NCBI GenBank assembly: GCA_024644385.1
Contig: JAHELB010000013.1
Coordinates: 1-37,416 of the forward strand
Direction of reading: 5' to 3'
From: Nitrosopumilaceae archaeon
GTDB taxonomy: Archaea > Thermoproteota > Nitrososphaeria > Nitrososphaerales > Nitrosopumilaceae
Length of the DNA: 37,416 nt
Positions 10,293-18,467 of this stretch are shown here, in pieces. Under the pieces are notes generated by a model, which saw nothing but the letters and a program-made list of their open reading frames with translations, was not told where the DNA came from and ran no database searches. The position numbers and the translations under genes are program-made. Position 1 is the first letter of the stretch, and each line of letters begins with the position of its first letter.

Positions 10293-11105
10293 ATGAAAAT
10301 TATAAATTTTTTATTTATTATGGTGACTCTGGCTTCATTTTCTATTTTTGAAAATGTGTATGCTGAGGTATATGATATTAATATGCCTACAGGCTCCGCA
10401 AGTCCAGACGCTCCATATTTTTGGCAAAATGAAAAAACTGGAGAAGCAACAGGTGACATTGAAATCCTTGTGGGTGATACAATTGTTTGGAAAAATGGAG
10501 ATCAAGCTAAACATACGATAACCTCTGGTACCCTTGAGGGAGGTCCAGATGGGAATTTTGGAGGAGCAGATTTTCTTGTTCCCGGTGATTTCTATGATTT
10601 TACATTTAAGAAAAAAGGAAGTTATCCCTATTTCTGTTTAATTCATCCCTGGATGACTGGGGTTGTAACAGTAACAAGTGTGGGATACAAAATTTTTTCT
10701 GGTGTGGGAAAAAATATTGGAGATGGTCTTTCCTTATTTGACATTGATTACCGGTATAGTGGAATCATTTCTGGCGTTAATGTAAACCAAGAAGAAAAAT
10801 CCATCACCATTCAATTGAAAAATGAATCTAACTCCGGACAAGAAAATCTATCGTTGTTACTTCCTTCTGAATTAATTGACGGTCCTTATGTTATTTTTAT
10901 TGACGGAAAAAAAAACCTTACATTTGAATATATTCCGGATGATGTAAATACTATAGATTTAGTGTTACCTGAAAATTCAAAAGAGGTTAAAATCATTGGA
11001 AGCAAAATAATGCCTGAATTTGGAATTCTGTCTTTAATTATTTTAGGGATTGCAATTAGTACCATGATATTTATTCAAAAATCAAAAATTAAGATAGATA
11101 ACTAA
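10293..11105 (+). CDS. Secreted membrane-anchored cupredoxin with PEFG tail
   Basis: The protein has a signal peptide (hydrophobic 4-20, likely cut after VYA-24) followed by a plastocyanin-like domain to about residue 130. Type 1 copper ligands are His74 (KHTITSG), Cys115, His118 and Met121 (CLIHPWM). A second beta-type domain fills about 135-235. The C-terminus is PEFG at 241-244, a hydrophobic span and a basic tail: the thaumarchaeal PEFG sorting signal, presumably cut by an archaeosortase-like enzyme and anchored in the outer membrane leaflet. Blue copper proteins in ammonia oxidisers are thought to replace cytochrome c in electron transfer. A direct role in ammonia oxidation here is inference. 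Confidence 0.9.
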   Translation: MKIINFLFIMVTLASFSIFENVYAEVYDINMPTGSASPDAPYFWQNEKTGEATGDIEILVGDTIVWKNGDQAKHTITSGTLEGGPDGNFGGADFLVPGDFYDFTFKKKGSYPYFCLIHPWMTGVVTVTSVGYKIFSGVGKNIGDGLSLFDIDYRYSGIISGVNVNQEEKSITIQLKNESNSGQENLSLLLPSELIDGPYVIFIDGKKNLTFEYIPDDVNTIDLVLPENSKEVKIIGSKIMPEFGILSLIILGIAISTMIFIQKSKIKIDN

Positions 11106-16906: not shown

Positions 16907-17160
16907 CCCGTATGTAGAGTTTATTAAATTTGAAATGTAAAATAAAAATTAAAACGCTTCATAATTCGGCAAACTCATCATTTTTCAGACATAGCTTTCT
17001 TAATCATCAGCTAATTCAAAAGTTATCTTGCAATACTTTTATGGGTTACTTTGAGGCATGTGAAATCAAGAGTTAAACAGGTAAAAGCAGTCAACCGATG
17101 ATTCCAAGGAAATAAAGTGGCAGGATACAAATTTAGTTTTTTCACAAACCATTTTTTGTG

Positions 17161-17727
17161 ATGCAAAAAACCATTATAATTGCAGCAATATGGGTTTTTA
17201 CAATATTTCCTATATAGAATTCCTCTTTTGGTCAAACCAATAACGAGACCTCTATTCCTGATGAAATCTTAGATCTAGGAACTAAGATTGGTGAATCAAT
17301 AATTGAAAATGGAGTAGAAATAGAAAAGATTTAGTTTGAGAATGATGATGAAATTCCAGAGATAGAACAACTGATAACTGCATTACAAGAAATACAGGAA
17401 AATTTTAAAAATTTAATTGAAAGTTTTGAGGACTATATCGAAGCGGGAAATCCAATTTTGGAATCATATCCAAAACAATGTAGAACAAGTGACGGGTGAA
17501 ATTTTATTGAAGATATTAATCTAATAATAATAAATTTTGAGTCTCTTTGTATAAAATAAGATGAAAAGTGACTGAAAGAATTTAAGGAATGTGAATTCAT
17601 CTCAGAGGAACAATGCAAATCCATTAAAGGGAAATTCCTTGAATGCGAATCTACATGTAGACACATAGCTGATGCACAAATGTGTACTATGCAATACGTT
17701 CCGGTTTATGTGATTCCATTTAAATAA
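17161..17727 (+). pseudogene. Secreted coiled-coil/cysteine protein gene with five in-frame stops
   Basis: One continuous frame of 188 codons runs from ATG 17161 to TAA 17725 with no shift, but is cut by TAG 17215, TAG 17332, TGA 17497, TAA 17557 and TGA 17569. Read through, it gives a signal peptide (MQKTIIIAAIWVFTIFPI, stop, NSSFGQT), a polar region, an amphipathic helix (IEQLITALQEIQENFKNLIESFEDYI) and a C-terminal part with cysteines in FKECEF, EEQCKS, LECEST, CRHIAD and MCTMQY. The preserved frame and amino-acid pattern show a recently dead gene. All five stops are one transition from Trp or Gln codons. No family name is recognised. Confidence 0.75.
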
Positions 17728-17749
17728 ATTTTAGAATTATTTTGATGAA

Positions 17750-18282: not shown

Positions 18283-18290
18283 TTAAATAC
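18283..18290 (+). promoter_or_regulatory. TATA-like box for the RNA candidate
   Basis: TTAAATAC resembles the archaeal TATA consensus and predicts transcription from about 18312, just before the structured region. Confidence 0.4.
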
Positions 18291-18311: not shown

Positions 18312-18445
18312 ATGTCGTTAGTTGCAAAATCTGGCGATTAAGATGCGTGACCTCACAGAACGAAAAAGGCAATCAGGCATTAAAAGACCTGACCATGAGA
18401 GGAAATCTCTCAAAGTTCTGTAAGAAAGAGGTTACGCCTTTTCAA
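18312..18445 (+). ncRNA. Candidate structured RNA with a three-way junction
   Basis: Helix A pairs GCGTGACCTC (18345-18354) with GAGGTTACGC (18428-18437): 10 pairs, one G-U. Helix B continues it: ACAGAAC (18355-18361) with GTTCTGT (18415-18421), leaving a 6-base AAGAAA bulge on the 3' side. Inside are two hairpins: TCAGG/CCTGA (18373-18377 and 18388-18392, 10-base loop) and TGAGAG/CTCTCA (18396-18401 and 18407-18412, loop GAAAT). That is 28 nested pairs in 93 bases, GC-richer than the surroundings, with a promoter-like box upstream and T-rich bases after it. It is not a tRNA, 5S, RNase P or SRP RNA by layout. Neighbouring purP reads the other way and ends 23 bases after the RNA, so it is no purP leader. 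Function unknown. Confidence 0.6.
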
Positions 18446-18467
18446 TTTTCATTATCAAAAATAATTG

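Follow-up and report, generated by a model that had tools for sequence, protein, structure and literature searches.

A candidate structured RNA family of Nitrosopumilaceae couples a conserved three-way junction to a putative leaderless micro-ORF of fixed length

We analysed a window of 37,416 nt, the whole stretch of DNA given as positions 1 to 37,416 of contig JAHELB010000013.1 from the Nitrosopumilaceae archaeon assembly GCA_024644385.1. At 18312-18445, the plus strand holds a predicted structured RNA whose neighbour, purP, was identified by its Pfam domains PF06849 and PF06973 (DUF1246 and DUF1297). The gene is convergent with the RNA, in the opposite orientation already described by a reading made from the sequence alone (the sequence-only reading). 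Elsewhere in the window, positions 17151-17730 (+) hold the remnant of a protein gene, a single frame broken by several in-frame stops (NETSIPDEILDLGTKIGESIIENGVEIEKI*FENDDEIPEIEQLITALQEIQENF and further), likely a pseudogene of a small secreted protein. The landmarks of the RNA locus are listed below.

18283..18290, plus strand: TATA box TTAAATAC; the first A of AAATA lies 27 nt before the start codon, a spacing kept in homologues
18312..18341, plus strand: putative leaderless micro-ORF, ATG + 8 codons + TAA (MSLVAKSGD), from homologue comparison
18315..18337, plus strand: P1 hairpin within the micro-ORF (18315-18321/18331-18337); most clades have it, though the register differs, and in some it is weak or missing
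18342..18344, plus strand: spacer GAT from stop codon to P2, 2-5 nt in homologues
18345..18354, plus strand: P2 5' strand, 10 bp with one G-U, partner 18428-18437 (folding, covariation)
18355..18361, plus strand: P3 5' strand, 7 bp, partner 18415-18421, with two-sided changes at all 7 pairs
18373..18392, plus strand: P4 hairpin, 5 bp (18373-18377/18388-18392; folding, covariation)
18396..18412, plus strand: P5 hairpin, 6 bp (18396-18401/18407-18412), GAGAG-GNRWU-CUCUC, the most conserved sequence of the RNA
18415..18421, plus strand: P3 3' strand (folding, covariation)
18422..18427, plus strand: variable 6-nt bulge between P3 and P2 on the 3' side (folding, homologue comparison)
18428..18437, plus strand: P2 3' strand (folding, covariation)
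18439..18450, plus strand: U-rich 3' tail, probable oligo-U terminator; T prevails after P2 in 102 homologues

Folding of the window sequence placed 28 nested core pairs within 18312-18445 and recovered every helix that the sequence-only reading had described (10 bp with one G-U, 7 bp, a 6-nt bulge, and hairpins of 5 and 6 bp). The minimum free energy of −44.8 kcal/mol compares with −26.1 ± 3.4 kcal/mol for shuffled controls (z −5.5); with 0 of 200 shuffles as good as the native sequence, this control left the proposed structure standing. The same reading had placed a TATA-like box about 30 bp upstream and T-rich bases after the structure. Both are there: TTAAATAC begins 29 bp before 18312, and the U-rich tail from 18439 is conserved in homologues, T dominating at nearly all of positions 1-11 after P2 in 102 of them.

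The helices are also supported by covariation. Among 56 related sequences, 12 of the 30 predicted pairs showed two-sided changes. A diverse alignment of 55 cores then served the check on compensatory changes in relatives, with two-sided compensatory changes at 22 of 27 core pairs. In these cores, 90.6% of cells were paired, compared to 82.2% in shuffles, and covariation reached 0.315 compared to 0.181 (0 of 500 shuffles as good); slid-alignment controls dropped to 31-51% paired. P5 is almost invariant, and P4 varies in length and sequence while its pairing is kept. We conclude that the three-way-junction structure is real.

One claim of the sequence-only reading, that no reading frame occupies the RNA, turned out to be wrong. 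The first 30 nt (18312-18341) form a 9-codon frame that reads ATG TCG TTA GTT GCA AAA TCT GGC GAT TAA, and almost every homologue has this frame. All 102 of the 102 unique copies have a stop codon 2-5 nt before P2 and a start codon 9 (rarely 8) codons upstream of it, with no stop between. We guarded against bias with a core-only covariance model that is blind to the 5' region; it fetched 20 further copies, 18 of which carry the micro-ORF, bringing the overall count to 120 of 122 homologues. One of the two copies that lack it (L232) has a degraded core. A weak homologue in genus g11, L243 (G019:C52:3581-3667), has TGT at the stop position and hence no micro-ORF; all four of its helices appear to form, with GCAAU as the P5 loop, and it could show how the RNA works without the frame.

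The geometry of the 120 micro-ORFs is tightly held. They start with ATG (110), GTG (8) or TTG (2), stop with TAA (69), TAG (32) or TGA (19), and span 9 codons in 115 copies and 8 codons in 5. The spacer from stop to P2 measures 3 nt in 67 copies, 4 in 46, 5 in 6 and 2 in 1. Length changes only by a whole codon (3 nt) in the ORF and by single nucleotides in the adjoining spacer. When the 92 distinct ORFs were compared, frame 0 met its first stop at codon 10 (87) or 9 (5), and the other two frames ended at scattered positions. On a core tree, which was built from few columns and gives approximate change counts, the stop switches among TAA, TAG and TGA at least 28 times, and in the 120 copies it never switches to sense. 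Of the stops, 19 have G at their second position and 32 have it at their third, but none has both. TGG is thus seen 0 times where 4-5 are expected, with P 0.0015 for the 120 copies and 0.005 for the distinct ORFs, copies being treated as independent.

The peptide shows no such constraint. Across 160 close pairs, pN/pS for the micro-ORF was 1.12, a ratio that RNA pairing in P1 may blur, and the peptide therefore appears unselected and free to drift. There are 84 different peptides among the 120 copies, and some groups share the residues x-K-D-V-x-P/S. These comparisons indicate that the start, frame, length and stop of the micro-ORF are under selection and the peptide is not, and we infer that the micro-ORF is a translation signal, rather than a structural one. 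If it is truly read, what is selected would be the act and place of translation, not the peptide.

Another explanation considered was that P1 gives rise to the ORF. On average, P1 of the homologues has a better fold than its shuffles (mean z −1.9), but its register shifts from clade to clade and some clades with a weak P1 still have the ORF, so we rejected this explanation. In L196, L199, L200 and similar copies, and in L238, P1 seems to be replaced by a hairpin with the start codon in it (ATGTC...GACAT, for example), and such a hairpin could gate initiation.

Of 120 homologues, 91 have the AAATA box 27 nt before the start codon and 16 have it 26 nt before. With the usual archaeal distance from TATA box to transcription start, transcription would begin at the start codon or no more than a few bases from it, and the predicted 5' UTR is therefore near zero. 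In a crude test, an AAATA box 25-28 nt before the start was present at only 5 of 82 long ORFs, and we did not retain this geometry as a general rule for leaderless genes.

Nitrosopumilaceae, a family of marine ammonia-oxidising archaea, are among the commonest archaea in the sea, and the RNA is widespread within them. BLASTN found it in sampled members of the same genus, in some other genera of the family and at a second locus in its own genome, and placed it beside purP at 43 of 80 purP loci from named genomes. A covariance model built from 56 sequences matched 181 of the 200 Nitrosopumilaceae genomes sampled; it covered 115 of 119 good genomes and 18 of the 22 genera, and gave no match in genera g5 (0.8-Mb genomes), g8 and g14. 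Among the matches listed from a class sample (n = 300) and a phylum sample (n = 397), all genomes were Nitrosopumilaceae, which agrees with the suggestion that the RNA is lineage-specific. An RNA that 115 of 119 good Nitrosopumilaceae genomes carry, often as several copies, is likely to be important to the family.

Genomes carry 1-5 copies. The genome under study has three, on C39 (the window locus), on C67, where the RNA is convergent with a 143-aa gene and divergent from an SDR gene, and on C19, where it is convergent with EPSP synthase. A possible fourth copy at C50:820-941 (E 0.6) was counted as a chance match because by eye the stretch resembles a HIT-type protein gene and the conserved core is absent from it. 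In L176 (G072:C184:10092-10216 and 10398-10524), two RNA copies stand in tandem, separated by about 180 nt; both have a TATA-like box and a micro-ORF of their own, with 8 codons in one and 9 in the other.

The gene downstream is convergent with the RNA at most of the 52 loci examined, and some copies lack this arrangement. Neighbours differ by locus and include purP, a 140-170 aa gene, EPSP synthase and TFIIB. We regard the RNA as free-standing on account of the mostly convergent downstream neighbour and the differing neighbours, and the convergent gene at most loci likewise argues against an ordinary 5' leader. The 140-170 aa gene (L111 3284-3715 and likely orthologues) has no Pfam match and is possibly exported, judged by its N-terminus. 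In many genera this gene is convergent with the RNA and often overlaps the RNA 3' end by a few bases; the locus beside it may be the ancestral one. In genus g9 (L170, L173, L177, L178) the convergent neighbour is a TFIIB gene, confirmed by Pfam for L173.

An Rfam scan bore out the statement that the RNA belongs to no recognised family: no Rfam 15 family reached its gathering threshold in the window or at 13 loci with diverged copies, and matches for the RNA at E up to 10 were at chance level only. The described mismatch to tRNA, RNase P and SRP RNA held as well. ARAGORN found no tRNA or tmRNA in the window, and a reduced RNase P RNA (RF00373) or SRP RNA (RF01857) was rejected with the genome's own versions located elsewhere, at G000:C4:3363-3641 and G000:C49:2263-2574. 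There was no match to an Rfam guide-RNA family, which Rfam covers poorly for archaea, and no canonical C/D box pair by eye. A viral or phage origin was discarded after one exact pattern gave no match in viral contigs and phage records gave no match either. Our literature search, from which subscription papers were largely absent, returned no description of the RNA, and an earlier sighting of the transcript is possible. In conclusion, sequence comparison identifies a new, free-standing, multi-copy, lineage-specific family of predicted structured RNAs. The proposal of a regulatory or housekeeping RNA, perhaps lineage-specific, thus stands as to its free-standing nature, its lineage and the lack of a known family, but not in its frame-free view; with a micro-ORF at the 5' end, the likely mechanism changes.

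Since start and stop are kept and the peptide is not, we suggest that the RNA works by loading a ribosome onto itself. The RNA would be a free-standing transcript of about 135-140 nt with its own TATA promoter and an end at the oligo-U stretch, laid out as a leaderless 9-codon mRNA at the 5' end followed by a rigid three-way junction. A ribosome would start at the very 5' end and read 9 codons; at termination, with the stop in the A site, P2 would start only 2-5 nt further on, near the point where mRNA enters the small subunit. By general ribosome geometry, a last sense codon in the P site would set P2 about 9-12 nt beyond the first P-site base, close to that entry point, and a 30-nt ORF is about one ribosome footprint. 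Because 30 nt hold one ribosome, a single terminating ribosome would be loaded onto each RNA, beside its junction. In some TACK archaea leaderless mRNAs are common; they may start with AUG or GUG, and the 5' triphosphate helps them to bind the small subunit (PMC11698992).

With modest confidence, we favour a ribosome-linked regulatory RNA in which one ribosome is loaded via the leaderless micro-ORF and terminates beside the three-way junction. We put forward more tentatively, as plausible but short of probable, that the family forms a self-loading class in which the fixed-length micro-ORF recruits exactly one ribosome and parks its termination at the junction, as a reserve, brake or sensor. 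The RNA might act on the loaded ribosome, slowing termination or recycling or keeping a monosome in reserve. Alternatively, the loaded ribosome might be a sensor of translation state that gates binding to the junction, above all to P5. Transcription, translation, ribosome docking and physiological role are all things that we infer here from sequence.

Other explanations fit parts of the data. The RNA could be a trans-acting structured sRNA whose junction alone does the target work, with micro-ORF translation tuning stability or coupling RNA amount to translation. The core is conserved independently of the ORF, most clades have P1 as a hairpin at the 5' end, an ORF that is fixed while its peptide is unselected would fit, and in the stability version a ribosome would shield the 5' end. 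We consider this explanation unlikely, though the strongest of the alternatives, as it leaves unexplained the exact length of 8-9 codons and the 2-5 nt from stop to P2. Less probable still is a cis-regulator, a leader-peptide attenuator whose read-through RNA would be antisense to the convergent neighbour, which is purP in the window. A promoter, a leader ORF, hairpins and a U-tract do follow one another in that order, and the downstream gene is convergent at most loci; set against this are the varied neighbours (purP, the 140-170 aa gene, EPSP synthase, TFIIB and others), the non-convergent copies and a core with no visible mutually exclusive terminator/anti-terminator pair. That the RNA is a small mRNA, with the 9-residue peptide as its product and the junction as its 3' UTR, seems improbable: the near-universal ORF and the x-K-D-V-x-P/S residues of some groups are outweighed by peptide diversity, the pN/pS above and a structured part far better conserved than the peptide. 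A purely non-coding RNA, with the 5' NUG and the URR before P2 as structural or transcriptional signals, would fit codons at fixed places between promoter and helix and the overlap of P1 with the ORF, but is very improbable in view of the absent TGG, the in-frame 3-nt length changes, the 0 internal in-frame stops in 92 distinct ORFs and the ORF kept where P1 is weak or absent.

No RNA class known to us has, as a constant element of a free-standing structured RNA, a leaderless ORF whose length is fixed and whose peptide does not matter; for this reason we call the RNA new in category. Leader-peptide attenuators resemble it in that a short translated ORF stands close before RNA structure and a U-tract; however, they require a same-strand downstream gene, whereas here there is no co-directional structural gene at most loci, the neighbour being convergent, and sensing codons are not kept, so membership was rejected. 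Like tmRNA, it would be a free-standing structured RNA with a short ORF and a stop read by the ribosome, but it has no tRNA-like domain or ARAGORN match, and its ORF lies at the 5' end instead of internally. In Haloferax, rancRNA_s194 binds the ribosome and inhibits protein synthesis in vitro (PMC6104027), and sRNAs with ribosome occupancy are described (PMC12482152). These offer a functional parallel, as archaeal intergenic sRNAs that are ribosome-bound or occupied, some with small ORFs; they are euryarchaeal, and the abstracts of the two papers mention no fixed-length leaderless ORF together with a conserved three-way junction. Dual-function sRNAs and the cyanobacterial Yfr6 / Downstream-peptide RNA (PMC2864571) resemble the family in having a short ORF inside a structured sRNA, although a selected or functional peptide is not supported here (pN/pS 1.12). 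In Yfr6, a short conserved coding sequence follows a 5' UTR motif, whereas in the window RNA the ORF is at the 5' end, the peptide is not conserved, and it is the length of the ORF and its distance to the structure that are conserved.
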